DNA from: Stieleria bergensis
GTDB taxonomy: Bacteria; Planctomycetota; Planctomycetia; Pirellulales; Pirellulaceae
NCBI GenBank assembly: GCA_007745635.1
Contig: CP036272.1
Coordinates: 3,155,124-3,219,123 of the forward strand
Direction: 5' to 3'
Length of the DNA stretch: 64,000 bases
Positions 1 to 18,277 of this stretch are shown here, one piece after another. Position numbers and translations under genes: made by a program. Each line of letters starts with the position of its first letter. The first letter of the stretch is position 1. The notes below the pieces were generated by a model that did no database searches, was not told where the DNA came from, and saw nothing but the letters and a program-made list of their open reading frames with translations.

Positions 1-2614
1 GAGCCTCTTTGCCGACCAGTGCGGACTGCATGCTGTCGCCGCCGTCGGACTCTGGCAAGATAATGTCATTCGCATTCTTGAGTTGCCATTTGGCGTATTG
101 ACCATTGGCGCCAATGTCCGCAGGCACCAGGCCGATCAACAATTCGTCTACGGATTCAAGGTCGACGGCTGCTTTGCCCAGCACAGCATTATTGCCTTTG
201 ATCATGCTGCCCTGAACCACCGAGGGTTGGACTGCGATGTGGTAGCGACCGCCAGACTTGCCAATCACTCGCAGTGGATGATGATCGGCCACGGAGGAAG
301 CCTCTGGTTCATTCTCGTCGTCTTCGACTTGCGGCGTGTCCAACCAAATCACTTGCGCCAGCACCTTACGATCCAGCGTCAGGGTTTCGAAGCCCGCTTG
401 AACGACGACGTTTGCCTCGTCGATCGACAGCAATCGACAACGCAACAGGTCGCCGTTGGTTGCGATCAGCAAATGCGTTGGGGGATCACGCTTATTTCGG
501 CGGGGGACGGTCAAAAATCGCTCGAGCGCGACGCCGTCGATTTTGACTTTTGCTTCGTAACCGGACAGCACGATCGCTCGGATTTCGTCCGAGTGGACAT
601 CTTTCTTTTCTGACTCTTTGGAGTCAAACAAGAAGTGCTTTTCGGCATACTTGTTGGGTTCGATTTCAACGCTTTCGCCGGTCTTCAAATACAACAGCGA
701 GGGAGAATCGGGGACGGAGCTCTCCGTCACGGTCGGCGGAGTTGGTCCGCCTGACATTCGCAGCAATCCGCTGAGCAGATTGATTGGGTTGGCAGCGCGA
801 GGCCGTTGCGCGACCGGTCTGGACGCCTGTGATTCGGTGGGTTTGGGCATTGCGGCGCGAAGGAATCTCATCTTGCCTTCGAAGGAGTCTGCCAGAGCGA
901 CCTGGGCGGCATCATTCGGCTTAAACCACAGCGGGTGACCGGCGTTGTCCGCAGGGGTTTCGATAAAGACACCGGAGAGTTTGCCGGTTTCGAATTCCAG
1001 ATTGCCAGCACGGCCTTCCTCGGGAGTTTCGGTCTTGGCTTTGGCGTTGATGCAAGACAGACGCAGCAGTTGCGCGATCTTGATCTCCACCGGTTCGGCA
1101 ACAAAATCGCTTTTTAGGATCAGCGATTGGTCGGTCGTTTGCACCACCTGACCAGACCATAACGAGCCCATGGTCGTGAACACGTTGAAGCGCCGAGCCG
1201 TGTTTTGGTCGTCGTCGTCCGTGTCGGCGTTTGGGGTAGCGGCGATCTGCTTGGGAGCGATCTCGATAACGTTGGACAGAGACACCGAGACCTCTTCTTC
1301 GCCGGTTTTGACGGTCACGCTTTGCCCGTCAACGGAAACAATTTGTCCCTCGACGATCTCTTTATCCGCTTTGTAGATTCGATCTTGATCGGTGTTATCG
1401 GTTGAATCGACAGCAAAGTAGGGCCGCACGAATAGAGAGTGAATTCGCAGCTTTCCGCTGTAGTTGGTAAAGCGAACAGAGCGGCGGTCGGCCAGTTTGG
1501 TCTCGCCAACCGAAGGCATGTCAAAGACTTTGCCGGTCGTCAAGTTGATCAATTTGGCCTCGCCCTTGGATTGATCGAGATGGATCAAAAAATGCAAACG
1601 GCCATTAAAGGAATCAATGTCGCCGAGCTTGATCAGGCTTAGGCTTTCCTCCAGTTCCAGGACGAGGACTAACTGCTCGTTGAAGACCGACAGGCAGAAC
1701 GTCCCTTGCAGCGCGTCGATCGGAGTCTTCTCGGTGGTCCCCAGTTCGATCACAAAATCGGTGTCAGGAGCGAATTCGACTTCAAGTTCAACACTGGATC
1801 GAGTGTGAAGAACGTCATCCCGACGAATCGCTGTGTTGGATTTCTGGGACGTCAGGACACCGGTTGAATCGTCCCAACGTGGCTCGTTGTCTTCCGGTTT
1901 GGGCTCAGGCTGTTTCTGATTCGGTGCCTGTCCCGCTGCGCGGATGGCAACGGCGGCATTCCGCAGTTGCACTTTTTGGATCTGTGCTTCTTGAGCCAAC
2001 TCCATCGCTTTCTTGACCTCGATCCAGCGGTCCAGGTGGTCTGGGCCCCGATAGATCGAGTTCTCTTTTCCATTGGTCAGTGGATAAATCCGTGAGACCT
2101 GATCGCGGGCGAGGGTCAGTACGCCACAGTCGGCGGTTTCAATCTCAATCGATTCATCGCTGATGGCGGACAATGTTCCGACGCAGCGTTCACGACTGTG
2201 CAGTTCGATGGCGACGGTTTGTTCGGGATAGTTCTCGATTTGCTTGGTGGGAACGGCCAAGCTGCGAACCGAATTGATGTCGAAGACGATCGGGGACACG
2301 AACCGCGAGTTTTTCCAGACCAGTTGTCCGGTTTCGCTGGGCAGCAATTGGCCCTCGATCCATTGATCGGAAATCAACGCCAGTTTGCCAGCGATGTGCT
2401 GTGGAGTGGTGGTCTGGGGCTGGGTTGCCTCAGTTGCTAAGTCGGCTGGCTGGCGGTTGCGCGAGAATGGATTGGATGCATCCCCCTCTTGCGCTCGGGC
2501 GTGCATTGCCATGCTGGTGACGAACAATGCTAACGCCAAGGGCGCCACCATGATCTGCGCAACGGTGGGATTCCAACTGCGTCGACGATTAGGGGAGACT
2601 GTAGCTGTTTTCAT
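1..2614 (-). CDS. Large secreted beta-rich protein, C-terminus beyond the window (operon gene 9)
   Basis: Last visible gene of the MoxR operon. The frame stays open to base 1, so at least 871 residues are present and the C-terminus is missing. The ATG at 2612-2614 overlaps the TGA of the upstream gene (ATGA at 2611-2614). A basic N-terminus followed by a hydrophobic stretch (about residues 20-42) ending in HARAQ looks like a signal peptide. The rest is beta-rich with recurring short modules of the type G-x-L...D..I.(about residues 76-120 and 135-178). Residues about 270-400 resemble a LamG-like sandwich by pattern only. The visible end reads SALVGKEA, wording that commonly opens a redoxin/TlpA domain; that domain would lie outside the window. 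Function unknown. Confidence 0.8.
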   Translation of the reverse strand, partial: MKTATVSPNRRRSWNPTVAQIMVAPLALALFVTSMAMHARAQEGDASNPFSRNRQPADLATEATQPQTTTPQHIAGKLALISDQWIEGQLLPSETGQLVWKNSRFVSPIVFDINSVRSLAVPTKQIENYPEQTVAIELHSRERCVGTLSAISDESIEIETADCGVLTLARDQVSRIYPLTNGKENSIYRGPDHLDRWIEVKKAMELAQEAQIQKVQLRNAAVAIRAAGQAPNQKQPEPKPEDNEPRWDDSTGVLTSQKSNTAIRRDDVLHTRSSVELEVEFAPDTDFVIELGTTEKTPIDALQGTFCLSVFNEQLVLVLELEESLSLIKLGDIDSFNGRLHFLIHLDQSKGEAKLINLTTGKVFDMPSVGETKLADRRSVRFTNYSGKLRIHSLFVRPYFAVDSTDNTDQDRIYKADKEIVEGQIVSVDGQSVTVKTGEEEVSVSLSNVIEIAPKQIAATPNADTDDDDQNTARRFNVFTTMGSLWSGQVVQTTDQSLILKSDFVAEPVEIKIAQLLRLSCINAKAKTETPEEGRAGNLEFETGKLSGVFIETPADNAGHPLWFKPNDAAQVALADSFEGKMRFLRAAMPKPTESQASRPVAQRPRAANPINLLSGLLRMSGGPTPPTVTESSVPDSPSLLYLKTGESVEIEPNKYAEKHFLFDSKESEKKDVHSDEIRAIVLSGYEAKVKIDGVALERFLTVPRRNKRDPPTHLLIATNGDLLRCRLLSIDEANVVVQAGFETLTLDRKVLAQVIWLDTPQVEDDENEPEASSVADHHPLRVIGKSGGRYHIAVQPSVVQGSMIKGNNAVLGKAAVDLESVDELLIGLVPADIGANGQYAKWQLKNANDIILPESDGGDSMQSALVGKEA

Positions 2615-3699
2615 CGTTCATAAATGGGTAAGAAGCGATAGTTGAGCGCCAACCCCAGCAGGTTCAGGCAGGTGCCGACTTCGGGGCCGTTGCTGGCTTG
2701 AAAGCTGCCATTGGCTTTCTGAGTCGACTTCAGTTCGCGGACTAACCGTTCATTCCATTTCTTCCACGACTCCACGTCGCCATGGAACAAAGCTTGGGCT
2801 TCGTAATAACGCCCGTATTCGAGATAGCTGCCTGAGCTGGCGGAGCCCAGGTCACTGGTCAGTGCACCGAGTGTGGCATTAAATTGTTTGACGTCTTTGC
2901 GTCTTGCCAGTGCATAGACGAGGCAGGCGATCGATTGTCTCGGTACAGAGACGCCAAAACCGCCAACGCCAGAATAGGCGACCTGTCCGGAGTCACTGGT
3001 CATCGATTGAAAGTAAGTGATCGCGCGATCGATCGCTTCGTCGGGAACTTCGATACCGGCGTTACGAGCGGCCAGCAAGCCCACCAAGACTGCTCCACTG
3101 ACTGAGGTGTCAGCGTCGGTGGCATCAGGACCGTAGCGCCAGCCACCGTGTTTGTTTTTCTTTTGCGAGGTAATGCTGGCTCGAACAGCCAGTTCCAATG
3201 CTTGGCCGACACTCCGTCGCTCGTCCGCGGGAACATCGCCACTTTCGCGCCACAGCGTGCGTTCATCAATAGCCCCGTAGACTTCCGAAAGCGCCAGCAT
3301 TGCGAAGCCGTGGTTGTACATGCTGGTGTGGCTGGTTCGTCCACCCAGAATTCCCGTGGTCTTGTCTTGGTTCCTGACGATAAAGCGGACAGCTTTGCGG
3401 ATCGCTCCGCTGTAGCGACCAAAGTTTGGGTCTTCACCGGAAGCCAAGAAGACCATGACCCCCATGCCAGAGACTCCGGCGCCGCCGTAGGTCCCTGATC
3501 CGAAACTGCCGTCTTCTTTTTGAATCGACAGCAAGTAATCGAGCCCCTTCTGGTAGACCTCGCGAACATCGCGAGGCACGGCTTCACCGATCTGAGCATT
3601 TGGCAGCTGAGCATCTGCAGGTGCCGCCAATAAGGTGACAAAGACACTAGCAAGGGCCAGCAAGCGAGCGTGTCGGGCGGGCAGTCGTTTATTCATCAT
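2611..3699 (-). CDS. Secreted prenyltransferase/squalene-cyclase-fold protein (operon gene 8)
   Basis: A 362-residue protein with a signal peptide (about residues 1-30, cut after APADA). The mature part has repeated motifs such as GLDYLLSIQKEDGSFG, AIRKAVRFIVRNQD and a GGWRYGPDATDADTSVSG segment, typical of the alpha/alpha-toroid repeats of the prenyltransferase/squalene-oxidase superfamily. Secreted members in planctomycetes are common but have no known substrate, and nothing here shows that it makes terpenoids. Its start (ATG 3697-3699, or the next codon) overlaps the end of the preceding gene by about 11 bases, and its TGA overlaps the ATG of the next gene, so it is translated as part of the MoxR operon. 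A scaffold or glycan/protein-binding role in the cell envelope is inference. Confidence 0.88.
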   Translation of the reverse strand: MMNKRLPARHARLLALASVFVTLLAAPADAQLPNAQIGEAVPRDVREVYQKGLDYLLSIQKEDGSFGSGTYGGAGVSGMGVMVFLASGEDPNFGRYSGAIRKAVRFIVRNQDKTTGILGGRTSHTSMYNHGFAMLALSEVYGAIDERTLWRESGDVPADERRSVGQALELAVRASITSQKKNKHGGWRYGPDATDADTSVSGAVLVGLLAARNAGIEVPDEAIDRAITYFQSMTSDSGQVAYSGVGGFGVSVPRQSIACLVYALARRKDVKQFNATLGALTSDLGSASSGSYLEYGRYYEAQALFHGDVESWKKWNERLVRELKSTQKANGSFQASNGPEVGTCLNLLGLALNYRFLPIYER

Positions 3700-4507
3700 C
3701 TTTCATCAGCCCCTGTGAGACCAGCATGTTCTTGTAGCCTTGATAGCGTTTGGCGTGCTTCTTGACCGCTGCTAATTCGTCACCTTCGAAAATTGCTTCC
3801 AGCGATTCATCTGGGACTCGGCTGAAAAAATAGCCCACGTAGTACAACGCATAGTTGCTTTTTGACGGACAGCGTGGCACGGCTTCATCGAGCAAGTTTG
3901 TCAGTTTGCCGTATTGATCCTGGGTCATCGGCACATCACGGCGAACCATGGCAAGCAACATGTGATTGATGGCGCGAGCGTCGGCGCGTTCTTGATCTTC
4001 GATGGCATGCTGAACCGCCGAGGATTGCTCTTCGCTTAGGTTTGCCAGGAATGCTTTATGAAACAGGCTGGTTTCACCAAACAAACCCTTTTCGAATTGC
4101 TGGGCGAGTGGTCTGGCAAGTTGATACGCTTGCGAGACGGCTTGGTTGTCAGAGGCGTCGATGGTTTTCAACACTTGGCGTCCATAGCGGACTTTTCGCA
4201 TGAAGCGTTTGATGTCACCTTCTCCAGCGAGCCGCATGATGGCTTTTTGATCGTCGCTAAGCGGAGACATCGCGTTCAGGTAATCAAGCTGCAATTCCAA
4301 ACGCTGCTCAATGGCTTTGTCGGCCGTCTTGCCATTGACGTTGCCCTGGAAGACCCAGCTGTCAAACTGAGTTTCCGAGAGTTGACGGCGAACGGCGACT
4401 TGGGCAGACGCCTGTGGGGCAGGCAGCACGGTCAGGAAGCCGAACGCTAGCAGGCAGGCACTGACCACAAGATGCGGTCCCTTGCCCTGAGGGCGATGCG
4501 TGGTCAT
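3689..4507 (-). CDS. Secreted helical protein with LSxxQ-type motifs (operon gene 7)
   Basis: A 272-residue protein if started at ATG 4505-4507, which gives the same ATGA overlap with the upstream stop as elsewhere in the operon; an ATG 12 bases upstream is also in frame. A signal peptide ends near PQASAQ. The mature chain is predicted helical and contains several L/M-[ST]-x-x-Q phrases (LSDDQKAIM, LSEEQSSAV, MTQDQYGKL). LTxxQ motifs define the CpxP/Spy family of periplasmic chaperones, so a periplasmic binding role is possible, but overall similarity to those proteins is not evident. Its position between the DUF4175-type protein and the prenyltransferase-fold protein suggests it is an envelope component of the same machine. 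No confident function. Confidence 0.8.
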   Translation of the reverse strand: MTTHRPQGKGPHLVVSACLLAFGFLTVLPAPQASAQVAVRRQLSETQFDSWVFQGNVNGKTADKAIEQRLELQLDYLNAMSPLSDDQKAIMRLAGEGDIKRFMRKVRYGRQVLKTIDASDNQAVSQAYQLARPLAQQFEKGLFGETSLFHKAFLANLSEEQSSAVQHAIEDQERADARAINHMLLAMVRRDVPMTQDQYGKLTNLLDEAVPRCPSKSNYALYYVGYFFSRVPDESLEAIFEGDELAAVKKHAKRYQGYKNMLVSQGLMKDDE

Positions 4508-5487
4508 TTGGCGATCCATTTTTTACCTTGGTAGTTCATCGTGACAGTCTGCATCTGCGAGGAAAAAATGACTCGCGAGGACCGGCTTAATGCTTCACGC
4601 TGAGTCTTCGAAAGAACCGACTCCGTCACGTCATCGGGCAGTTGTGGCAGATAGCGAGGGTTCTGCACATACACTTGGACGTTGACTAAATCCGTATCAA
4701 GATCCGCTTTTTTAATGTTGTCGATCAGCTTTTGACGCTGCTCTTTGGTCAGCGGGATGTGTCGCTGATACAGCATGGCATAGGTCTGGGCTAGAGCCTG
4801 CTTTTCGGCGTCTTCACGTGCCTTGGCTTCTTTGCTGTAGGCCTGGAACTGTTCTTTGTCCAAGGCTTCTTTGGCATAGGCCAAGGCATCCTTGCGAATG
4901 CGTTCGAAAGGGTTGGCGTACAAGCGAATGCTGTTCGGTCCGTACATCACAATCCGCTTGCCCGGGATCGCACGATTCCGAGGCCCCACCATGTCGATCA
5001 TTTCATCCCGAGCCTTCTTGGCCGCCTCGACCATCTTGTCCATCTGATCGGAGTTCGCTTGGCCGACCTGATGGATCAGACTCAGTTCGCGATTGATGTG
5101 CGGCGTCAGAAACGTGAGATCGACCTCTTTGGGATCCACTTTGACGGCCGGGCCAATCTTTGCAGGAGCAACCCTGGGCGGGCGGATGCCGAAGCCAAAA
5201 ATGGCTCTGGCGACGTCCCGTCCAATGTCTTTTCCGATCTCGCCGGCTTGCTGCTGGGCAGCCTTGTCGACGTCCTTTTCCTGTTCGTCCCCATCAGCTT
5301 CGCCGTGTCCATCAGCTTCGCCGTGTCCATGAGCTTCGCCGGCAGCGGCATCAGCAGCCGCTGCCTGTGCGGCAGCCTGCGCCACCGCTGGCTGTGCGAC
5401 GTCGACCTGTGCGATGACGTTCTGGGTAAAGACCAACAGCGCGAAGCTGGAGGTGAGGAACAATAATCGAAATCGTTGGCAGTTCAT
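4504..5487 (-). CDS. Secreted Ala/His-Gly-Glu-rich helical protein (operon gene 6)
   Basis: A 327-residue protein with signal peptide (residues 1-27, ending NVIAQ). A low-complexity stretch follows (about residues 28-75): Ala/Gln-rich, then a HGHGEADGHGEADGDE acidic histidine segment that could bind divalent metal. The rest is a charged helical domain with an LTKEQRQKLIDNIKKAD phrase resembling the LSxxQ motifs of the next gene; the two may be distant paralogues. The ATG shares its A with the TAA of the DUF4175-type gene (TAATG at 5485-5489), so the genes are translationally coupled. Function unknown; probably a periplasmic or surface subunit of the operon's product. Confidence 0.82.
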   Translation of the reverse strand: MNCQRFRLLFLTSSFALLVFTQNVIAQVDVAQPAVAQAAAQAAAADAAAGEAHGHGEADGHGEADGDEQEKDVDKAAQQQAGEIGKDIGRDVARAIFGFGIRPPRVAPAKIGPAVKVDPKEVDLTFLTPHINRELSLIHQVGQANSDQMDKMVEAAKKARDEMIDMVGPRNRAIPGKRIVMYGPNSIRLYANPFERIRKDALAYAKEALDKEQFQAYSKEAKAREDAEKQALAQTYAMLYQRHIPLTKEQRQKLIDNIKKADLDTDLVNVQVYVQNPRYLPQLPDDVTESVLSKTQREALSRSSRVIFSSQMQTVTMNYQGKKWIAK

Positions 5488-8400
5488 TATCCACCCAGTT
5501 GATTGAAGTACTTGTCCAAGCCGCTGCGGAACTCTTCGGGGTAGACGTTGCCCGTTTCACCTGTGGTTTGTGAGACGTCACGTGCTTCCTTGACTTCCTT
5601 GGCATTTCGGCCACTGCCCAAGAGGGCCAATGCCGCGTCAACGGTATTGCCTTCGCCGCCGCCGCCGGGGCTGTTGCCACCGCCTCCGCCGCCGTTGGGA
5701 TTGATACGTTTGCTCTGCAAGAGCAGCTCAATGGCTTCGGTTTCAGCGGCAATCGCTGGCGAGCCGGTTTCGCCGCCGTACAGGATTTCGCCCGCTTCAC
5801 GCATGACACCGTTGACCGCTGCCAGCAGCTTCATCTCTTTGCCAAAGTGCTTGTTCGCCTCAGGCAATTCTTGAATGCGATCGACGACATCAGCAATGCG
5901 TTTGGCCAGTTTATTCTGAACTTCCGAAAGCGACTCGGCTTCCTTCATGTGCTCTGCTTCTCTCAGCGCTGGACGTCCTTGTTCGGCAACACGTGTTTCA
6001 TCACGCAAGGCGATTTCGCCTTCCAGGATCTGCAGGACTTCCAACACGATCGACGGTGGCAAACTTTCCGGTGAAGCTCCACCGGGGCATTGGCCGCTTT
6101 TAGCGGGATCGACCAGGTTTTCCGCCCAGCGGTCTAATGTGTCTGCCCAGTATTCGCACATGGCGACGGAGACACCTTGTTGGCTGACGATTTCCGACGA
6201 GAGGTCGTGGATCGCGGTCAGCACTTCTTCTTCACGCATTTCGTCAAGCGTGGTCTTGAAACGCGCGAACTTGCGACGTTGGTAGTACGCTTCCATGTCG
6301 TCCATGATGTAGGACACGGACAGAGAGCGACTGCCTTCGGCCTCACTCAGTTGCTTTAGGATGGTCTTGGACTTCTTGTTGACCTCAAGCTTGCTTTGAC
6401 CGAAGGCCGGACGGATCTGGTCGGTCAGTTTTCCAGCGATCACGTTTTGCACGCGTGATTCGGCTTTTAAACGCTTGACCAATGTGCTGCCTTCAAGGTT
6501 AGCCAGGATAGCGTTGAGCTCCTCAGCGATCTTATCGAATTCAGCTAGCAGGTCTTTCTGTTCAGTAACCGCTTGGTCCAAGGCGTCTTCTTGGTTCTGT
6601 TGCTGCTGTTGTTCCTCTGGTTTGCCATTACCGATAATGGTTGTTCCAGGTAGACGCAATGCAGAGTTCGATGGTTTCTTCGGTGGTCCCGGTTCAGCAG
6701 GATCGTCATCATCTTTGGGTGCCAAGGCGCTGGATTCGACATCCGCCAAGGTTGGGGCGGCACGAGGTTCGGGGCCTTCGCCTTCGGTTTCCGATGGCTT
6801 GCCAGATCCGTTGGCGCGGACTTGGCCTGCATTGGGTGCCGGAGGCTTGGCAGGGCTTTTGCCGGCGACCGCCTGTGGGTCAGCTTCGCTGGGTTTGCCA
6901 GAACCCTGTGAGGGGGCGTTGGAGCTGTCTTCCAGGAGCTCCGCGACGCTGGGCATGCGGTTGTCGGACAGGTCCTTCAGGATTTGCAGCATCTGTGCCC
7001 AGTCTTCCAAGTGACCCACGCCAATCTCGGGGTTGCGGGCAGCAGCTTTGACCAGGTCTTCACCGAGCTGGTTGAGGCGATCGAGCCGCCGTCCGTTCGC
7101 TTCTTCTGCATCGGCCTGCCGAGCCAACTCGCGACGCGATTCTTCGGTCGCCAGCTCTTCGCGGCTCTTGTCTCGCAGCTCCTTGTTGGCTTCGTGCAAT
7201 TGGCGTTCACGGTCGCGAACATCCAGTGCTTGTTGATGCCATTTGCTTAACTGCTGAGTCATCCAGATGGCATGTTGATCAGGCGACAAAACATACAAGG
7301 TGTACGGTGCGCTGTAAGAACGTTTGCGTCCGGGCATGTAGTCTTCGGCCCATACAAACAGCTCCAAAGCTTGTGGCTGGATGCCAAGACGCTCCGCACA
7401 GAATGTGCCTTTTGCGTCGAGTTCCATTTCCTTGGGCCCGCCGGCGGTCAAGATTTTTTCGCCGTTGGCAAGTTTTTCAACCGTGGGGTGTGGGATGCCG
7501 CGCCACATGATCCCAGCCTTCTTGACACCGAAGTCATCTGAAACACCGACCGTGAACTTCACGACTTCTGAGTTCAGTAGCACCATTTGGCGTCGCAAAC
7601 CGTCGACTAAAACGGTCGGTGCGTTGTCATCGGTGGAATCAATTGACAATTCAAACGGGGACTTGCCAGTCAATCCATACTGATCACGCCATTGGAATTT
7701 AAGTGTCCTAGAATCGTCCAGTGTCAGGGGAGCTGCGCTAAGTTCGGCACCCGATGGCGTGGTGGGCTCGTCATTGACGCGTCCCAAACTGAGTGCTCGG
7801 TTTGCAGCGGCGGTCACGGTGGCACTGCTGCCACGGACTAAAGTGACGCGGCCTGCACGTGAATCGACGGACAGAGCATCGGGCCGTTGCAGGTATTCAG
7901 GAAGCCGAACGTCAGCGATCACGGATTCCAGTTCCGGACGGAACATTGGGTTCAGGTCATGTCGCTGAGCCAAGTCACCGATGCGCAGTTTGACGTTTGT
8001 GGCGGTCAGTTGCGGCGGAATTTGGAAGCGATATTGATTGCCGTCGAGTTCGGCGATCAATGGATCATGGTTGGCAATCGATAGCTTGGCGGTTTCGGGG
8101 AGCCAAAGACTTTCGTTTGAGAGTTTGACCAACAACTCAGATTGCTCGCCGTGAGCAATCACGATCTCTTGATCGATGGGGTTGATTCGAGTGAATGTGT
8201 AGCGAGGAGTGTCGCTCCAAGGTGAAACCAATCGTGCCAGCGAGTTAAACGCCGCTTGCGGATACAGCAAGCTAACGGTGACGGAGGCCAAAACAACGAC
8301 GGTGGCCATGACGGCGAAGGAGCGATGCCGCGAATCCGGCGTGGCGACACGAAAATCTTGATCCGCACAGTCCGCTGCTACCTGATCCATCGCCGCCTGA

Positions 8401-8780
8401 CACAGTGCGATCGAACGCTGTTGTTCGGTCTCGTTGTCAGCCAGTTCGATCACACCCAGCAGACGATCGCCGATCGACGGCAGTTTGCCGGACAACAATC
8501 GTGCCAATGCGTGCAGGCCGCGAAAACCGGCCAGCCAACGAACCAGGAAGTACGGCACGGCCGCAAACGATGCCAGTGCGACGACCAAGAATCCAGCGCG
8601 GATGATGGCCGGCGCGTCTGTCCAGCGTTCCCAGGCGTAAACGATCAGGAACATCAATCCTAAGGTCAACAGGATCAATGAGACGGTTTCAATCCCCTTG
8701 ATCCACCAGACGCGATTACGAAACGCGATCAGCTGTCCTTTTAAAGAATCCGGAACCGAGAGTGCGGATTTAGTTTTCAT
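5487..8780 (-). CDS. DUF4175-like membrane protein with long coiled coil (operon gene 5)
   Basis: About 1,097 residues from ATG 8778-8780, which forms an ATGA overlap with the preceding stop. Two N-terminal membrane segments (about residues 25-75), a DR-LLGVIELAD phrase and another membrane segment (about 150-170) resemble the N-terminus of DUF4175 proteins. A large extracytoplasmic region follows with several beta domains, then a long charged coiled-coil part (from about residue 500) interrupted by Pro/Ala/Gly-rich linkers and a poly-Gly stretch near the C-terminus. In other bacteria, DUF4175 genes sit with MoxR, DUF58 and VWA genes, as here. Likely a membrane-anchored scaffold; the biochemical role is not known. 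Confidence 0.85.
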   Translation of the reverse strand: MKTKSALSVPDSLKGQLIAFRNRVWWIKGIETVSLILLTLGLMFLIVYAWERWTDAPAIIRAGFLVVALASFAAVPYFLVRWLAGFRGLHALARLLSGKLPSIGDRLLGVIELADNETEQQRSIALCQAAMDQVAADCADQDFRVATPDSRHRSFAVMATVVVLASVTVSLLYPQAAFNSLARLVSPWSDTPRYTFTRINPIDQEIVIAHGEQSELLVKLSNESLWLPETAKLSIANHDPLIAELDGNQYRFQIPPQLTATNVKLRIGDLAQRHDLNPMFRPELESVIADVRLPEYLQRPDALSVDSRAGRVTLVRGSSATVTAAANRALSLGRVNDEPTTPSGAELSAAPLTLDDSRTLKFQWRDQYGLTGKSPFELSIDSTDDNAPTVLVDGLRRQMVLLNSEVVKFTVGVSDDFGVKKAGIMWRGIPHPTVEKLANGEKILTAGGPKEMELDAKGTFCAERLGIQPQALELFVWAEDYMPGRKRSYSAPYTLYVLSPDQHAIWMTQQLSKWHQQALDVRDRERQLHEANKELRDKSREELATEESRRELARQADAEEANGRRLDRLNQLGEDLVKAAARNPEIGVGHLEDWAQMLQILKDLSDNRMPSVAELLEDSSNAPSQGSGKPSEADPQAVAGKSPAKPPAPNAGQVRANGSGKPSETEGEGPEPRAAPTLADVESSALAPKDDDDPAEPGPPKKPSNSALRLPGTTIIGNGKPEEQQQQQNQEDALDQAVTEQKDLLAEFDKIAEELNAILANLEGSTLVKRLKAESRVQNVIAGKLTDQIRPAFGQSKLEVNKKSKTILKQLSEAEGSRSLSVSYIMDDMEAYYQRRKFARFKTTLDEMREEEVLTAIHDLSSEIVSQQGVSVAMCEYWADTLDRWAENLVDPAKSGQCPGGASPESLPPSIVLEVLQILEGEIALRDETRVAEQGRPALREAEHMKEAESLSEVQNKLAKRIADVVDRIQELPEANKHFGKEMKLLAAVNGVMREAGEILYGGETGSPAIAAETEAIELLLQSKRINPNGGGGGGNSPGGGGEGNTVDAALALLGSGRNAKEVKEARDVSQTTGETGNVYPEEFRSGLDKYFNQLGG

Positions 8781-11098
8781 ATCAGTCCTGCCCCTTTGCG
8801 TGCGATCCAAAACAGGCCCAGCAGTCCAACCAAGACGGCAAAGGTGATCGGGTGTGACCACAGTGCCACCCGTCGCACCGTTGGTGGCGGGTCTGGCATG
8901 GCGTTTAGTTGCTGGATAATTTCAGGTAACTGGTTAAAAGAAATGACGCTCCCTTGCGTCATCCTTGCGAGCTCCTCGAGGACTTCTGGCCGAGCCGGTT
9001 GTCCTATCTTTTCCAACGACTCACCTTGAATGAACAACGAGGTGTCCAAGGTTTGTCCCGTCTCTTTGCAGAACAGTTGCAACTTGTGTTGCCCCGGTTC
9101 CTTGGAGGTAAATCGACCTGAAAATGCACCCCACTGACCTCCGCTCGATTGCAAACGGACCGTTTCCAAACGATTCGAAGGGGAGGTGATTCTTAGGACA
9201 ACCGTTCCCTTGCTTAATGGTTCGCCACTGATTTCCATGACATTCGCGTCAAAGGAAACGGTTTGGCGGACTCGTGGACGTTCCGGCGAATAATACATCC
9301 GCATGGTTTCGCCTTGAGCCATGTTGCGGCGATAAGCCATCCAGCGAACGACTTGTCCCCAAAAACGATAATGGTACTTGTCTTCGACACCCTTCCGCCA
9401 ACGCCAAGCCCCATCGGTGCCCATGAACAGCACTTTGCCGGAGCCAAACGTTCGTGTCACTAGCAGTGGAATTCGACCATATTGATTGCTCGCTTCCTGG
9501 TGCACCGCCAACGTCTCGGTTCCATTTTTAGCGGAGGTGACCGGTGCGTACCACTGGAATCCGGGCAAGTTGCCCCAGACGGCCAGATTTTCGTCGGCGG
9601 TATCGGCAAGCTTTGTCAGCAGACTACGGCGACCCATCTCGGTCAATTCAAAGTGTTGTGCGGTTCGAGATCCCCAGCCTCCGAGCTGCGTGTCGTCCAG
9701 ATTGACTGGCATAAGTTCCGCAAGCTTCGTTTCCAATAGCGTAAACTGCCTACCTTCCCAGCCGGGCAGGAACACCAGGCCGCTGGCTTGGTCCTGAACC
9801 AAGCCGTGCAGCAAGTCGCATTGTTCAATGGTCAGCTGATTGTCATCCAGTCCCACGTCACCGAGGAAAACGACATCGTATTCGGCAAGTTCTTCTTTGG
9901 TCGCTGGAAACGAACTGATGTAGTCTTTGTTGCCACCACCGCGTTTCTCCAAACCGGGATGGAACAGCAAGCAAGAAACCGTCACACCTGGATCGCGGGA
10001 AAGCGAGTTTCGTAGGTAGCGGTATTCCCAGCGCGGAAAGGATTCAACGATCAAGACTTTTAGCTTTTCTTCGCGAATCGAGATCGGTGCGGACGCCGTG
10101 TTGTTGTCTTGACGAATCTCCGAGGGATGATCGTCGACTGTTAATTTGAGCGATCGGTCACCGAGCAGATCGGGAGTCCATTCGAAGAAGTCCGCAGTGC
10201 GGCCCATTGCTGCGACACGGACTTGTTTTTCGATCGCTTGGCCGTCTTCGGTTTCCAGCACGACATTGGCCATGTGGTCACGTGGCAACGAGCTTTCAAC
10301 GGTGAATGGGATCCGGACCTTTTTACTGGCGATCGCAAACGTTGGCACGTCAAAGCTGATCAATTCGATGTCGGGTAAACGCGTGTCGCTACCAACAGGC
10401 AAGGCAAAGATTGGCACGCCGGCGGCGCGAAGTTTTCCAGCGGCGTTGACGGGCGACCCGCCGACGTTCCAGTCGCCATCGGAAACCACGAACACGCCCA
10501 GCAGGTTCTCGTGTTGCTGAATCGTCTGGGAGATGGGGCCCGACAGATTGGTCCCGAACGCAGTGTCGGACTCGTCGTCGTCCGCTTCGGCAGCGGGCTG
10601 AGCCTGAGTGTTCAGTAGCGATGCCAAGCGGATCTGCGGCGTGTCGTTCCTGGCCGCGCTGGCTTGGTCATCGTTTGCGTCTGTGACAGTTTGAGGCCCA
10701 GAGAACGGTTCGATGATGACCTCGGCACGTTCTTTCAAGTCGTCCCAAGTCTGTTCGTTGATCAGCGCTTCGATGGCTTGTTTGCGACTGATGGTTTTCG
10801 ATGGACCCGACGTCGCGGTGACGTCCTGTGTTGTCATGCTGTCTGAGTCGTCATACAGGACGGCGACCACTGGCTTGGTATTGGGACGGAACTGTTGAAT
10901 CCATTCCGGGCCACCAAGCAAAATGACGGCAAGCAGAACGATCAGCATGCGCGTGCCTTCGAGCAACACCGTCGATCGGCGCCAGTTGGTGCGTTGACAG
11001 GCGATGAAGGACAGAATCGCTGTGGCCACCGCGATCAGGATCGCCATCACGGCAATCATCGGCGACCAGGCAAAGGAAATGTCGCTGTTCTCAATCAT
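8777..11098 (-). CDS. VWA / glutamine-amidotransferase-like membrane protein (operon gene 4)
   Basis: A 773-residue protein from ATG 11096-11098 (ATGA overlap with the upstream stop). Two N-terminal membrane helices (about 12-35 and 50-63) are followed by a von Willebrand factor A domain with the MIDAS phrase DDSDSM (residues 83-88). A later segment (about residues 340-460: VLIVESFPRWEYRYLRNSL, YDVVFLGDVG, SGLVFLPGWEG) resembles a class I glutamine-amidotransferase fold without an obvious catalytic Cys. A C-terminal membrane helix ends at the stop. Such proteins accompany BatA-type proteins in planctomycetes and Bacteroidetes. Probably a metal-dependent adhesion or assembly subunit facing the periplasm. 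Confidence 0.88.
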   Translation of the reverse strand: MIENSDISFAWSPMIAVMAILIAVATAILSFIACQRTNWRRSTVLLEGTRMLIVLLAVILLGGPEWIQQFRPNTKPVVAVLYDDSDSMTTQDVTATSGPSKTISRKQAIEALINEQTWDDLKERAEVIIEPFSGPQTVTDANDDQASAARNDTPQIRLASLLNTQAQPAAEADDDESDTAFGTNLSGPISQTIQQHENLLGVFVVSDGDWNVGGSPVNAAGKLRAAGVPIFALPVGSDTRLPDIELISFDVPTFAIASKKVRIPFTVESSLPRDHMANVVLETEDGQAIEKQVRVAAMGRTADFFEWTPDLLGDRSLKLTVDDHPSEIRQDNNTASAPISIREEKLKVLIVESFPRWEYRYLRNSLSRDPGVTVSCLLFHPGLEKRGGGNKDYISSFPATKEELAEYDVVFLGDVGLDDNQLTIEQCDLLHGLVQDQASGLVFLPGWEGRQFTLLETKLAELMPVNLDDTQLGGWGSRTAQHFELTEMGRRSLLTKLADTADENLAVWGNLPGFQWYAPVTSAKNGTETLAVHQEASNQYGRIPLLVTRTFGSGKVLFMGTDGAWRWRKGVEDKYHYRFWGQVVRWMAYRRNMAQGETMRMYYSPERPRVRQTVSFDANVMEISGEPLSKGTVVLRITSPSNRLETVRLQSSGGQWGAFSGRFTSKEPGQHKLQLFCKETGQTLDTSLFIQGESLEKIGQPARPEVLEELARMTQGSVISFNQLPEIIQQLNAMPDPPPTVRRVALWSHPITFAVLVGLLGLFWIARKGAGLI

Positions 11099-13182
11099 GC
11101 TGCTTTCTCCGTGCTGGTTGCTGATGAACCTGTAAACGCCATCCGTTGAGTCTTGGCTTCGACTCGCGGCAGGCACAGCAACGCTTCGCCAAACATGGCC
11201 AGCAGCATGCCGATCCAAAAGATGTGCCAAACCTCTTCGACCAGCGAACTGGTGTTGGCAGACTCGCTTTGATAACTCTCGAACGGGACGCCAGCAAAGA
11301 GGGCTCGCAATTCGTCGTCATCCAACGCTTCGGTTTTGGTCTCAGCCGCCGATCGGCTTACCGCGATCAGCCGTGGAGATTCCTCGTCACCGTACTGGTA
11401 GACGCCCGCGTCGAATGATTTCTCAGTCGAAAGACGTTCATCGGCGCTAAGTTTGGTCACCCAAGTCTCAGCCCGCTGACGGTCCACTTGTCCCGCGACC
11501 GCTGCGTTAGTGCTGCCCAATGACTCGGCACCATCGGCGAGAGCCCGCTGGAGCATGACGTACAAAACGATGCCGTTTGCCGCCAGCGTGGAGTCTTCTG
11601 CGCGTGTGGTCGTGCCGCAGAAATAGACGCCGCCACTTGGCGTGGCAACACGAGACAACAAAGGTGCATCATCCGAGAGCCGAGCCAACGTGGTTGCGTC
11701 ACCGTTTACCGGGACATTGCGATAGATTTTTAGTTGGCCAATCGGCAGCGACGATCCAGAGAGCGTCGCCGCAAGCAGGTCACTGTCGCCACGCCAGGAC
11801 GCGACATCGGGCTCGGGGGGAACGCTCCACTGAGTCCAAACGCACCCAAACAGACTGTCGGCAACGTCTTGTTCGGCAATTGTTGCAGTCGGAAAGAAAA
11901 TCACCGTGCCACCACGCTGGACAAAAGCGTCCAGCGCAGCGGCGTCACTGTCGGATTCGAGGTCGCCCGAGGGTAATGGAGCGTGCCAAAGGACCAGGGA
12001 CGTTTCATCCCAGCGGATCGCACCGATCTGTTGAGGCGTGATTTGCTCGACTGTGTTTTCAACAAAGGGGTTCGCGGAAACGCCGGCGGCCAGTTCCATC
12101 ACCCGAGCGGCATCTTCGTCGGTGCTGATAATCACGGTTGCTTTTGCCGGCGGTTGACCAAAGGCAAAGTAATCGATGTTGTCCGAATCATTGCCGTCGG
12201 CAGGGATCGAAATGGAGCCGTAACCCTGTGTGACTTTCCCGGCGATCGGCAAGTGATAGTCAACGATTTGAGCGACACCACCTTGCAAAGTGACTTCCAT
12301 CGATGAACGCGTGCCCAGCAAATTGATTGCCACTGGAACGGTCATCGCTTCTGTGGGCACTTCTTTTTCGCCGAACTGCTGCTCGGTCACCGTGAACGAG
12401 AGCGAAATGCCGCTCTCGTCTTTGCCGCGATCAACTTTGACTTCGTCCACAGTAATGAATCGGTTGTTGCCGGTGGCCTCTTTGGGCGGATGCAAGTAGC
12501 GGACCCGCACCCGGTGTCCCATCTCAGCGAGCGTTTGCTGCATGGTTTTCCAGCGGCCATCGGTTGGGTTCCAGTCAGAGCGATTGCCATCTGAACAAAC
12601 CCACAGATCGACCTGGGCGAGTTGGTTGTCTTCGATATAGCGAACGGCTTCTTCAACCATGCCAGGCAGGTCAGCGGTTTTATCACTGGGGCCGATTTCA
12701 GCCTGCGTCAGGAGCAGTTTGGCATCGTCGACTTCGATAGCACCGGCGTGGTTGCTTTCTATCAGAGCAATTTTGCTCACGCCCGTGGTTTGCAGTGTTG
12801 CCGAGACTTGTTGCAAGCTGCGATCGAGCCATGTCACACCGTCGCCGACGCTCTTTTGCATCGATGGACTGCGGTCCAGAAGAATGATGGCGTTGGTGGA
12901 TCGGGTTCCGAATAGAGTGCCGAGCATGGCGCCGCCCATGGAGCTATTCAACAAGGGCCGTCCGATGGCGAACACCAATGCCACAATGGCCAGTGCCCGC
13001 AAGGCAAGGATCAACCACTGGCGGATTTTCGCGTAACCGCGATTCATTCGGCTCGCGGCCAACAGAAACTGCATCGCCGCCCAAGGCGTGCTTTGGTAGC
13101 GACGTTGGTTGATCAGGTGAATGATGATCGGCAGGACCGCCAGCGGCAGCGCGAGGATCATCCAAGGCTGTAGAAAATTCAT
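11095..13182 (-). CDS. BatA-domain VWA membrane protein (operon gene 3)
   Basis: A 695-residue protein beginning FLQPWMILALPLAVLPIIIH, the hallmark of the N-terminal BatA domain: hydrophobic helix, then HLINQRRYQSTPWAAMQFL, then a second helix (about 56-76). A VWA domain follows with MIDAS sequence DRSPSM (103-108). The C-terminus has a membrane helix (about 655-675). The start overlaps the DUF58 stop (ATGA, 13179-13182). BatA proteins occur with MoxR ATPases and DUF58 proteins, where the ATPase is thought to act on VWA proteins in folding or assembly. The two VWA genes here may form a hetero-oligomer; this is inference. Confidence 0.92.
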   Translation of the reverse strand: MNFLQPWMILALPLAVLPIIIHLINQRRYQSTPWAAMQFLLAASRMNRGYAKIRQWLILALRALAIVALVFAIGRPLLNSSMGGAMLGTLFGTRSTNAIILLDRSPSMQKSVGDGVTWLDRSLQQVSATLQTTGVSKIALIESNHAGAIEVDDAKLLLTQAEIGPSDKTADLPGMVEEAVRYIEDNQLAQVDLWVCSDGNRSDWNPTDGRWKTMQQTLAEMGHRVRVRYLHPPKEATGNNRFITVDEVKVDRGKDESGISLSFTVTEQQFGEKEVPTEAMTVPVAINLLGTRSSMEVTLQGGVAQIVDYHLPIAGKVTQGYGSISIPADGNDSDNIDYFAFGQPPAKATVIISTDEDAARVMELAAGVSANPFVENTVEQITPQQIGAIRWDETSLVLWHAPLPSGDLESDSDAAALDAFVQRGGTVIFFPTATIAEQDVADSLFGCVWTQWSVPPEPDVASWRGDSDLLAATLSGSSLPIGQLKIYRNVPVNGDATTLARLSDDAPLLSRVATPSGGVYFCGTTTRAEDSTLAANGIVLYVMLQRALADGAESLGSTNAAVAGQVDRQRAETWVTKLSADERLSTEKSFDAGVYQYGDEESPRLIAVSRSAAETKTEALDDDELRALFAGVPFESYQSESANTSSLVEEVWHIFWIGMLLAMFGEALLCLPRVEAKTQRMAFTGSSATSTEKAA

Positions 13183-14180
13183 CGCACACCTCGTGAAGTC
13201 GCTCGGCGTGTGACGAAGTTCGTGAGCACATTTTGCACGCTCTGGTCGATCGTCACGCGATGATAGTCGCTGCCGCTTCGGGTGACGATGCGATCAAGGT
13301 CCGTCAGGTATTCGTTCATGGCTTGACGGTATTGGTGCGCGATTTCGCTCGGTTCGGCAAGCATTGCCGTGCCGCCTTCCATGTCCAGGAACCGCGTTGG
13401 ACCTGAAAAGGCAAAATCCAATTCCATCGGATCCAAGAGGTGAAACAGTGACAAGTCGTGACGTCGGAACCGCAAGTGTTCGAAACAGCCCAGCAGTTCA
13501 CTGGAGTCGACAAAGAAGTCCGAAATCACGATCACCAGCGCCGCTTGTGCGGTGGTTTCGGCCAATTGGTGCAGCACTGAAACCAAGTCCGTTTCGCCCT
13601 GCGGTTTGGCCTCGTTGAGCGTGTCAAACATCACACTTAGGTGAGCCGGATTCCGCCGCGGTGGTAAGTGTTGCACGATGCCATCGGCAACGCAGGAAAG
13701 GCCCACCGCGTCACCTTGTTGGGCGGCGATGTAGGCAATCGTTGCGGCGATTTGTTTCGCGTACTCTAGCTTGCTGAGCGTCACGCCCGGCCGAGGGACA
13801 CGCAGCTTGGTGCTTGGTCCCGAGTCGTTGGATTTCTTACTGCCCTTCTTAGGGACCGTTCCGTAATCCATCGATCCGCTGGTGTCGACAACGATGCAAC
13901 AGCGCAAATTGGTGTCCGCTTCGTACTCTTTGACGTAGTAGCGATCACTTCGTCCGTGAGCACGCCAGTCCAAACGACGGAGGTCATCGCCGGGGACGTA
14001 CTTGCGGTATTCTGCGAACTCGACGCTTGAACCACGTGTGGGACTGGTGTGAATGCCAGAGACATTCCCGCGCATCGGGCGACGTGCCAGCAACGGCATG
14101 CCTCCTAGAGCGGCCAGAACTTTGGGGTCAAGGAAGTCGCGTGTGCCTTGTTCTGAAGGCGAGCTTGATGGGTTAAACAT
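13179..14180 (-). CDS. DUF58 / VWA-like protein (operon gene 2)
   Basis: A 333-residue soluble protein with the DUF58 signature EYRKYVPGDDLRRLDWRAHG (about residues 57-76) followed by a VWA-like fold containing DTSGSM (99-104). DUF58 proteins are near-constant partners of MoxR ATPases; their exact activity is unknown, but they probably act as an adaptor between the ATPase and membrane VWA proteins. The ATG at 14178-14180 lies 9 bases after the moxR stop, and the TGA overlaps the BatA gene start. A Ser/Lys-rich loop (about residues 109-122) sits next to the MIDAS strand. Confidence 0.94.
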   Translation of the reverse strand: MFNPSSSPSEQGTRDFLDPKVLAALGGMPLLARRPMRGNVSGIHTSPTRGSSVEFAEYRKYVPGDDLRRLDWRAHGRSDRYYVKEYEADTNLRCCIVVDTSGSMDYGTVPKKGSKKSNDSGPSTKLRVPRPGVTLSKLEYAKQIAATIAYIAAQQGDAVGLSCVADGIVQHLPPRRNPAHLSVMFDTLNEAKPQGETDLVSVLHQLAETTAQAALVIVISDFFVDSSELLGCFEHLRFRRHDLSLFHLLDPMELDFAFSGPTRFLDMEGGTAMLAEPSEIAHQYRQAMNEYLTDLDRIVTRSGSDYHRVTIDQSVQNVLTNFVTRRATSRGVR

Positions 14181-14189
14181 GCCGGTGGA

Positions 14190-15215
14190 TTAAAGCTCGC
14201 TGATCAGTCGTTCAATGATGTCGCCTGCTCGCATGCCTTCGGCTTGAGCAGCAAAGGTGGTCACGATTCGGTGTGAAAGCACTGCCTTGGCAACCGCCAA
14301 AACGTCTTCGCTACGAACCATGTAAGAACCTTCCAAGGCAGCCCGGCTCTTGGCGCCCAGGATCAAATCCTGAACCGCCCGTGGACCAGCCCCCCAAGAC
14401 ACCAATGGCAGCATCCAGTCCGGTGCATCGCCTTTCTGCGGTCGCGTGCGGCGAACCAATTTAGCGGCTTCGACATAGATGTGATCAGGAACGGGAATCC
14501 GGCGAACCAGTTGCTGGTGCGCCAAAATCTGTTCGGCGTTGATGACTTGATCCAGCGTCGGGATCGTGTTGCCGGTCGTCGATCGAGCGATCTGAATCTC
14601 TTCCTGCTCCGAAGGATAGTCCAGCTCGATCAATGTCATGAAGCGATCAAGTTGAGCCTCGGGCAACGGATACGTGCCCTCCTGCTCGACAGGGTTCTGC
14701 GTGGCCAAAACCATAAACGGTGAAGGCAGCTCAAATGTCTTGCCAACCACGGTGATGCGCTGCTCCTGCATCGCCTCGAGCATCGCGGCCTGAGTCTTAG
14801 GTGGGGCGCGGTTGATTTCGTCGGCAAGAATAATGTTGGCGAACACGGGCCCTTTGACAAAGTGGAACTCGCGTTTACCGTCCCCGCCGTCTTGCAAAAT
14901 GTCCGTCCCGGTGATGTCCATCGGCATCAAGTCAGGAGTGAACTGGATTCGGCTGAAGTCCAAGCACATCGTTTCAGCAAGCTTGCTGACCAACAACGTT
15001 TTTGCCAATCCTGGAACTCCCATCAGCAACGCGTGACGGCGTGCAAACAGTGAGATCAACAACAGATCAATCGTCTCTTTCTGGCCGACAATCACGCGGC
15101 CAAGCTGGCTTTTCAAATCGCTGTGGGCTTGTCGTAAGCGATCAACCGCTTGCACCTCATCTTCATTTAACTGCTGGATCGTGTCGGAGCTGGTCGGTTC
15201 AATGGTCTGTGACAT
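14190..15215 (-). CDS. MoxR-family AAA+ ATPase (operon gene 1)
   Basis: A 341-residue AAA+ ATPase of the MoxR family. Walker A is GVPGLAKT (residues 66-73), Walker B is IILADE with the catalytic pair at 132-133, followed by the INRAPPKTQAAMLEAMQE stretch typical of MoxR. The C-terminal lid (AAA_lid_2) follows. MoxR proteins use ATP to remodel or insert metal into partner proteins; the partners are normally the DUF58 and VWA proteins encoded next door, as here. ATG at 15213-15215 is chosen over an in-frame TTG seven codons upstream, because the extra residues show no family similarity. It is the first gene of the operon; its promoter should lie in 15216-15400, but no confident -35/-10 pair was identified. 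Confidence 0.95.
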   Translation of the reverse strand: MSQTIEPTSSDTIQQLNEDEVQAVDRLRQAHSDLKSQLGRVIVGQKETIDLLLISLFARRHALLMGVPGLAKTLLVSKLAETMCLDFSRIQFTPDLMPMDITGTDILQDGGDGKREFHFVKGPVFANIILADEINRAPPKTQAAMLEAMQEQRITVVGKTFELPSPFMVLATQNPVEQEGTYPLPEAQLDRFMTLIELDYPSEQEEIQIARSTTGNTIPTLDQVINAEQILAHQQLVRRIPVPDHIYVEAAKLVRRTRPQKGDAPDWMLPLVSWGAGPRAVQDLILGAKSRAALEGSYMVRSEDVLAVAKAVLSHRIVTTFAAQAEGMRAGDIIERLISEL

Positions 15216-17617: not shown

Positions 17618-18169
17618 TTAGGACTTCTTTGCGTCCAGCGCACGCTGGTAATACTTGTGCGTGATTTTGTCTTGGTTTTCTAACAACCAATCAATCGACG
17701 GTTCGTTGCACATCGCTTTTTTGATCGCCTGAGCGGTCGCCCGGCGGTGGATGTCGAACAGAGCTTCATGGTCCAGGTTCTCATCTTTCGCCGCGCCTGG
17801 ATTCAACCAGACGCTACAAATGATGCCCAGGTCGTTGGCTTTTTCCTTGGGGATGTCGCCGGCACGCACGGCGTCCAGGACGCCGTTGGCGATCGCGCCT
17901 TGGACTGTGCCCATTAGAATATTGGTGTAGTCTGAACTCTTGACGGTCACTTTGCTGACCATCAAGGTCACTGGACGCACTTGGATGTCCGTGTCGAGAA
18001 TCGCAAACACCTTGCTGTGGCCGGCGGACTGGTTGCCAGTCAGCGTGGCAATGGCGGTGCCAACGGGACCATCAAGTTCTCCGATCACCACTTCGGGCTC
18101 TGCAGCGGTAAAGGGTGGTCCACCGGCAATCAAGCATTCGCCGGTACGCATAATGATTCGCTCGCTCAT
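17618..18169 (-). CDS. fae: Formaldehyde-activating enzyme family protein
   Basis: A 183-residue protein matching the Fae family over its length: GECLIAGGPPFTAAEPEVVIGELDGPVG at the start, a SKVTVKSSDYTNILMGTVQGAIANGVLDAV core, and RATAQAIKKAM near the C-terminus. Fae condenses formaldehyde with tetrahydromethanopterin; planctomycetes are known to carry this C1 pathway. ATG 18167-18169 is chosen because GGAGAG lies four bases upstream; an upstream in-frame ATG would add 23 unconserved residues. No other C1-pathway gene is nearby, so the gene may be a stand-alone formaldehyde-detoxification function or a Fae paralogue of other function. The assigned activity is by family and has not been tested. 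Confidence 0.88.
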   Translation of the reverse strand: MSERIIMRTGECLIAGGPPFTAAEPEVVIGELDGPVGTAIATLTGNQSAGHSKVFAILDTDIQVRPVTLMVSKVTVKSSDYTNILMGTVQGAIANGVLDAVRAGDIPKEKANDLGIICSVWLNPGAAKDENLDHEALFDIHRRATAQAIKKAMCNEPSIDWLLENQDKITHKYYQRALDAKKS

Positions 18170-18277
18170 CAATCTCTCCAATTCAGCATGATGTAAAACA
18201 GTCGCTGACAGCTTAACGGATTGCCCGAGAAGTTTCATGCCCCCTTGGAAACCAAGGGACTGTCGAGAGTGGCGGGG

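Follow-up and report, generated by a model that had tools for sequence, protein, structure and literature searches.

MoxR-VWA operons are common and many are without known function, which raises the question of what the one studied here does in the planctomycete Stieleria bergensis. The window is the whole stretch of 64,000 nucleotides at positions 3,155,124 to 3,219,123 of contig CP036272.1 (G000:C1:3155124-3219123), in a 7.1-Mb genome (G000) that forms a single contig. Nine minus-strand genes run from a MoxR AAA+ ATPase (gene 1) to a protein with a C-terminal thioredoxin domain (gene 9), and an initial annotation of the window had taken them for a plausible machine that assembles or matures something on the cell surface. 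Our comparisons point instead to gene 5, in which a conserved cysteine is replaced in many relatives by an in-frame TGA that is very probably read as selenocysteine (Sec).

An in-frame TGA at the conserved cysteine of gene 5

Gene 5 (5487..8780, minus strand) encodes a membrane-anchored protein with predicted beta-domains and a helical domain. The window protein is the Cys form of the Cys/Sec family, its conserved cysteine, residue 898 counted from the ATG at 8780, being encoded by a minus-strand TGC at 6087..6089 where the Sec-form relatives have TGA. The first sign of the exchange was that gene 5 seemed to be split directly ahead of a PGG motif in two genomes, at the place where the window protein has this cysteine. 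Re-alignment and tblastn then showed that 12 genomes from the order set have an in-frame TGA in the Cys column itself or no more than four residues from it (G003, G004, G083, G115, G162, G164, G184, G198, G212, G261, G306 and G385); the TGA of G261 lies four residues earlier, with another residue at the usual column, and G306 has two TGA codons. A scan of named genomes covered 399 relatives, of which the best 80 were analysed, and gave TGA exactly at the Cys column in 23 of these 80 loci, in a gene-5 alignment otherwise free of stops. One of the named TGA loci lies on a complete chromosome (CP036526.1, Planctomycetes bacterium K23_9).

The merged collection of 156 loci, less two without a gene-5 match, two of low cover (L113, L183) and 21 exact duplicates, comprises 131 non-redundant operons, of which 29 have the Sec form, 77 the Cys form and 25 neither residue. 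Wherever a stop codon occupies the site (29/131 operons) it is TGA, never TAA or TAG. The column holds Cys or TGA in 104 of the 106 thiol forms, the exceptions L082 and L084 being shifted or doubled variants with TGA four or five residues ahead of the column's neighbour positions. Downstream of the site, identity to the window protein is 61.6% in Sec forms versus 60.8% in Cys forms. TGA is also an ordinary terminator in the same operons, and a general reassignment of UGA was rejected on its use at 85 of 160 assessed gene ends. On a FastTree phylogeny of gene 5, some branches of which are long, the Sec label requires 12–13 changes.

Some other apparent stops proved to be of a different kind. 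Those of G395 and G166, together with an extra TGA in G115 and in G162, precede the likely start of the gene, and none of the stops first reported in G267, G119 and G243 was seen inside the tblastn alignment, in which all three genomes carry Cys forms. TGA-form homologues of gene 5 are probably annotated as truncated proteins.

A SECIS-like hairpin and the selenocysteine machinery

The bacterial selenocysteine insertion sequence (SECIS), as outlined in PMC1088965, is a hairpin just 3′ of the UGA with a small apical loop bearing a guanosine. The word GGCAGTTTGCC follows the last TGA in 29/29 Sec forms, at a distance of 15–33 nt that is 18 nt in 27 of them, and it is able to fold into a hairpin whose small loop contains G, as in the bacterial element; GGCAGUUUGCC likewise stands 15–33 nt past the last UGA in all 29. 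In the named set GGCAGTTTGCC occurs in 23/23 Sec forms versus 1/57 others (p 3.5e-19), and in the first set, judged by eye, in 12/12 Sec sequences and 0/40 Cys sequences. The next pair of the stem covaries (CG, UA, GC, UG) while remaining paired in 24 of 24 distinct rows, with a covariation score that exceeds those of all 500 shuffles. One Cys form, L193, retains the 11-nt SECIS-like word and is perhaps a recent Sec-to-Cys change.

A survey of SelB and tRNA-Sec found SelB over the cut-off, tRNA-Sec at 62 bits or more, or both in 12/12 Sec-form genomes (both in 10/12), as against 5 of the 33 other operon genomes in which both were sought (p 2e-7). A tRNA-Sec search of further operon genomes was positive in 6/31, which brings the genomes without a Sec form to 11/64 altogether.

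We read the TGA as Sec, and regard TGA-form gene 5 with high confidence as a selenoprotein, because the downstream protein is conserved, TGA serves as an ordinary stop elsewhere in these operons, the hairpin word and the Sec machinery are present, and the residue has changed repeatedly. As in the known prokaryotic selenoproteins covered by PMC13188914, the TGA-form relatives have a UGA aligned with the Cys of their homologues, a SECIS-like hairpin shortly 3′ of it, and Sec machinery. The same comparison leaves the window's own gene 5 outside the selenoproteins: its codon is TGC, and neither SelB nor tRNA-Sec was found over the cut-off in G000.

On the competing view gene 5 is truncated in these genomes, and the TGA reflects genuine termination, an error of frame or sequencing, or a reassignment of the codon in general. 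Many of the assemblies are drafts and TGA does end genes in these genomes, but errors or chance stops sit poorly with one site shared by 29 operons, a single kind of stop, a conserved downstream protein, a common hairpin, Sec machinery in 12/12 genomes and one finished chromosome, and we consider this view very improbable.

Several observations nevertheless weigh against the Sec reading. The case for Sec is a comparative one. Of 24 rows, 9 and 13 break the two outer pairs of the stem, and 300 of 500 shuffles reach the observed count of pairs changed on both sides. By eye, the minimum-energy fold contains the GGCAGUUUGCC hairpin in 7/12 Sec sequences of the first set, the other 5/12 pairing UUUGCC with an upstream GGCAAA, and fold z-scores against shuffles are -1.9 and -0.3 for two sequences. 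As for the machinery, the 62-bit level for tRNA-Sec was chosen post hoc, from a gap between 62 and 52 bits, while at Rfam's own cut-off 27/45 genomes match, and many weaker tRNA matches exist; G003 has SelB without tRNA-Sec at 62 bits or more, and G162 has tRNA-Sec without SelB.

The gene-5 thiol and the thioredoxin of gene 9

Gene 9 enters the window only in part (1..2614, minus strand). Its full length is L009:4709-7738 (window -415 to 2614), 1009 residues, and it extends 415 bases past the window edge. The last ~145 residues form a thioredoxin domain of the AhpC-TSA/Redoxin type (Pfam AhpC-TSA E 3e-22) with the active site WCGPC; the domain starts about 16 bases inside the window, and the CGPC codons lie beyond the edge. 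Among solved structures the nearest to this domain are thioredoxin-family proteins including ResA (E 1e-17). On the strength of the CxxC and of an export segment predicted by hydropathy alone, from a hydrophobic N-terminal segment, gene 9 is classed as a ResA/TlpA-type exported thioredoxin. It resembles that type in its C-terminal domain, its CGPC and its ResA match, and differs in that the domain sits behind ~860 residues and inside a MoxR operon; those ~860 residues match no family above the Pfam cut-off. Two Sec forms, L142 and L213, have CSPC rather than CGPC at the thioredoxin site.

The state of gene 5 and that of gene 9 are associated. Gene 9 carries CxxC in 71 operons with a gene-5 thiol and lacks it in one, versus five with and nine without among the forms that have no thiol (p 4e-8). 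Three of these nine losses keep the domain, with SAPS, SAAS or SKPS in place of CxxC. A functional partnership between gene 5 and gene 9 is likely on these sequence comparisons.

Other observations count against that partnership. Gene 9 is unscored in 45 of the 131 operons (9 Sec, 25 Cys and 11 without the thiol). Five no-thiol loci keep CxxC, namely L122, L123, L210 and L214, which form one Ser clade with CAPC, and L104, with CGPC. L096 has the gene-5 Cys and a gene 9 without the thioredoxin domain. In L081, a Sec form from G164, no gene-9 homologue was detected past gene 8, where other long open reading frames lie; this locus was scored as unknown, and counting it turns the ratio of 71:1 into 71:2. 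Finally, the gene-5 tree offers six independent pairs, of which 3–4 agree with co-loss and none runs the opposite way (sign test p 0.125).

Serine at the Cys/Sec site (GGASPGG) was seen in L195, L197, L206, L210, L214, G117 and G379, with CAPC in the thioredoxin where one was found. The Ser-form genomes G117 and G379 have tRNA-Sec.

The loop that carries the Cys/Sec residue

Hydropathy gives gene 5 three transmembrane segments, and together with the charge pattern it suggests that the large C-terminal part lies outside the membrane, on the same side as exported gene 9. The AlphaFold model (mean pLDDT 76, pTM 0.50) has beta-strands at ~205–498 and long helices afterwards, with Cys 898 in a stretch of low pLDDT (892–903) flanked by helices 868–889 and 909–934. 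Foldseek matches of gene 5, with query TM-scores of 0.08–0.13 among the 50 listed, were not taken as homology.

The initial annotation had labelled gene 5 DUF4175-like, and this label found no direct support: Pfam DUF4175 has no match to the window protein at E<=0.05, nor to any of 18 aligned members at E<=0.1. In G000 the DUF4175 model has a single match, below the cut-off, to a distant paralogue (2551788-2552060). What gene 5 shares with DUF4175 (PF13779), as described in PMC7481262 for AdvA of Acinetobacter baumannii, is N-terminal transmembrane helices.

A second cysteine is not obligatory at either position assessed, which counts against the redox step proposed below. Cys at -4 occurs in 53/106 thiol forms (52/77 Cys forms), so it is not obligatory, and an obligatory resolving Cys at 875, 23 residues upstream of the site, was rejected with only 47/106 thiol forms having it (20/29 Sec, 27/77 Cys).

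The loop cysteines also bear on whether the residue is a metal or cofactor ligand, with the machine inserting or removing a cofactor in an exported client and the thioredoxin just keeping the ligand reduced. The precedent would be NorQ/NorD, a MoxR-VWA pair reported to be essential for iron insertion, and 52 of the 77 Cys forms have a loop pair, its second Cys at -4, that could bind metal. In opposition, it is a single Cys/Sec that is nearly invariant, the window copy has no second loop Cys, and loss together with the thioredoxin site is more directly expected from redox chemistry. A ligand role is in our judgement unlikely.

A proposed redox step in a MoxR-VWA machine

The thioredoxin of gene 9, the Cys/Sec of gene 5 and the duplication of genes 6 and 7 together favour a redox step at a thiol or selenol over generic surface assembly. 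It is somewhat likely that such a step is performed by the exported part of an ATP-driven MoxR-VWA machine, and that this machine is what the operon encodes. The fuller proposal, towards which we lean slightly, is a new selenoprotein family at the centre of the machine: ATP hydrolysis in the cytosol would drive or gate a selenol/thiol reaction on the exported side, for which a dedicated thioredoxin serves as electron partner. The residue that reacts would have switched between Cys and Sec many times in Planctomycetota and would usually have been lost along with the thioredoxin cysteines.

As such, the cytosolic MoxR and DUF58 proteins would be the motor, and genes 3 and 4 (BatA-type and VWA/GATase-like) would relay its action across the membrane to gene 5. 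This route is proposed because NorQ/NorD and RavA/ViaA act on other complexes and the VWA domain of a Borrelia Bat-like protein is periplasmic, according to PMC5700661. The gene-5 loop between two helices would present the one nearly invariant Cys/Sec outside the membrane, TGA being read most likely as Sec under the direction of a bacterial SECIS hairpin, and the loop thiol or selenol would perform or control a redox step on an exported client. The gene-9 thioredoxin most likely keeps the Cys/Sec reduced or trades electrons with gene 5, and genes 6–8 may be exported partners or client adaptors. Energy coupling, the direction of electron flow and the client are inferred only. Against the proposal, operon membership is all that ties MoxR to the redox step.

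The thiol could instead be a redox sensor whose oxidation toggles the MoxR machine and which thioredoxin resets, the work of the machine not being redox chemistry. Such a switch would suit a residue in a probably flexible loop, as the model places it, the existence of paralogous operons that manage without Cys/Sec, and the lower expression of Borrelia Bat-like genes in aerobic conditions reported in PMC5700661. No regulatory element was identified, however, and recurrent use of Sec suits catalysis at least equally on general grounds; a sensor seems to us distinctly unlikely.

A conserved operon and its paralogues

The operon behind the proposed redox machine is conserved: its gene order recurs across Planctomycetota, more than by chance. 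The initial annotation had treated a gene order not shared by relatives as grounds for rejecting its reading, and the order is kept. The extension of the MoxR-DUF58-VWA set into exported proteins likewise holds up as a single conserved operon, with an order that recurs in relatives. Orthologues of gene 4 (class E<1e-220) occur in 14 of 77 order-set genomes, its own genome counted, and the stretches around these 14 have the same gene order. A larger sample of 396 genomes from the order has gene 5 at E<=1e-60 in 110 of them. The five upstream genes stand in order at 82/131 non-redundant gene-5 loci, and the complete order, with gene 8, gene 9 and one or more gene-6/7 homologues, at 62/131, both counts being lower bounds since loci ending at contig edges were scored as misses. 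Tight overlaps are conserved mainly at the duf58-batA and batA-vwaG junctions, with a choice of starts that favours overlaps, and in the relatives examined vwaG and gene 5 are usually separated by a gap.

G000 itself has 15 strong MoxR matches (AAA_3 E<=1.2e-59), the window copy included. Six further MoxR genes of this genome adjoin DUF58 (L030, L032, L034, L036, L038 and L041), four of them with BatA/VWA-like genes and two, L030 and L038, with a cyclase-like gene. The paralogous operon L030 (G000:C1:1302500-1322400) shares with the window operon the order moxR-duf58-batA-vwaG-gene 5-gene 8-gene 9, but no gene-6/7 homologue, loop Cys or thioredoxin domain in gene 9 was detected in it. The redox part therefore looks like a module gained by, or lost from, a more general machine.

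The persistence of paralogous operons without the thiol or a detectable thioredoxin also suits the original idea that the machine builds or matures something on the cell surface, Cys/Sec and thioredoxin being accessories, as does the number of exported proteins without an assigned function. Against it stand the near-invariance of the Cys/Sec, in 104/106 thiol forms, and its usual occurrence together with CxxC, and we hold this explanation to be quite improbable. A gene-4 relative at G056:C458:4547-6967 has one in-frame TGA.

Relation to known systems

The operon shares features with several known systems. Like Bat (aerotolerance) operons it opens with a MoxR AAA+ gene, a DUF58 gene and a gene for a BatA-type membrane VWA protein, in that order; unlike them, as compared on MoxR, DUF58 and BatA, it continues into a VWA/GATase-like protein, gene 5 with its Cys/Sec site, exported helical proteins in tandem, the cyclase-like gene 8 and the exported thioredoxin of gene 9. 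With NorQ/NorD, RavA/ViaA and CbbQ/CbbO it shares a MoxR ATPase and a VWA partner, which in those systems are reported to act on another complex, NorQ/NorD in iron insertion and RavA/ViaA on respiratory enzymes. In the MoxR papers surfaced by searches for a selenoprotein or an exported thioredoxin, no such component is described in title or abstract opening.

An inventory of May 2026 is stated to take in 119 prokaryotic selenoprotein families or subfamilies (PMC13188914). The gene-5 protein is absent from its Table 1, and differs from the entries there in being a large membrane-anchored protein with a GGTUPGG-type loop; by term counts, Planctomycetota is not named as a phylum in the main text. 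Searches of the literature on MoxR, Pirellulales or Planctomycetota together with selenium surfaced nothing relevant. Selenoproteins have been reported in planctomycetes P1 and P2 in PMC4807772, and gene 5 may be among its supplementary candidates. The MoxR-VWA operon is a known kind of system, of which the redox/Sec variant appears to be new.

A conserved, Sec-replaceable residue provides a defined chemical site in a MoxR-VWA operon, open to mutation, labelling and trapping, and points to redox chemistry of thiols beyond the membrane. To the known selenoproteins it adds a family that is apparently missing from the recent inventory, going by Table 1 of PMC13188914.

The nine genes in the window

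All nine minus-strand genes named by the initial annotation are present in the window sequence, and its count of seven overlaps and one 9-bp gap agrees with ours. From gene 1 to gene 9 the junctions are +9, -4, -4, -4, -1, -4, -11 and -4, where the ATG nearest the upstream stop was taken as the start if several were possible.

Gene 1 (14190..15215) belongs to the MoxR AAA+ family by its Pfam AAA_3 domain (E 2e-62) and AAA lid (AAA_lid_2, E 1e-12). Gene 2 (13179..14180) is a DUF58/VWA_2 protein (Pfam DUF58 E 3e-43, VWA_2 E 1e-7), and gene 3 (11095..13182) a BatA-type membrane VWA protein (Pfam BatA E 4e-18, TIGR02226 E 4e-26, hydropathy). The AAA_3, DUF58 and BatA matches exceed the Pfam cut-off, and the one feature in which a Bat operon was recognised is a BatA N-terminal domain adjoining MoxR and DUF58. 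Gene 4 (8777..11098) encodes a putative membrane VWA/GATase-like protein, assigned from a GATase1_like match below threshold and its orthologue class. The metal-ion-dependent adhesion site motifs proposed earlier, DRSPSM in gene 3 and DDSDSM in gene 4, were both found in the sequence.

Gene 6 (4504..5487) is a predicted exported protein of the gene-7 family (BLASTP E 0.002 against gene 7, hydrophobic N-terminus, orthologues in the same place), and gene 7 (3689..4507) a predicted exported helical protein (27-row alignment, model pLDDT 87.7). From their sequences the two form a single tandemly duplicated, fast-evolving family. A direct search turned up gene 6 itself in only 6/77 order-set genomes, and the gene-7 profile places 0 to 8 family members in the interval from gene 5 to gene 8; of 108 operons, 58 have two and 12 have none. 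The idea that genes 6 and 7 are Spy/CpxP (LTxxQ) chaperones, which LTxxQ-like motifs had suggested, was rejected: there is no such Pfam match, and the gene 7 model matches no PDB fold at E<=0.001.

Gene 8 (2611..3699) is a candidate exported cyclase-like protein, described initially as having a prenyltransferase fold. In the family 14 of 17 members match SQHop_cyclase_C at E<=0.01 and a PDB squalene-hopene cyclase is matched at E 2e-3, while the window protein itself, at 21.1 bits, falls below the curated cut-off of 26.1 bits. In L150, L159, L166, L170 and L200 the spacing between gene 5 and gene 8 is 5.2–7.1 kb, compared with ~2 kb in most operons.

Promoter-like sites are no commoner than in shuffles (5 vs 5.8) and terminator-like sites number 27 vs 18.7; neither was used as evidence. 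A gene for Fae (formaldehyde-activating enzyme) at window 17618-18238 precedes the operon in the same orientation. On its downstream side L009:1-3426 encodes a PSCyt2/PSD1 (DUF1549/DUF1553) protein and a DUF1501 protein, and between these and gene 9 the intergenic region holds twin identical terminator-like stem-loops at L009:3758-3783 and L009:4274-4299 (window about -1366 and -850).

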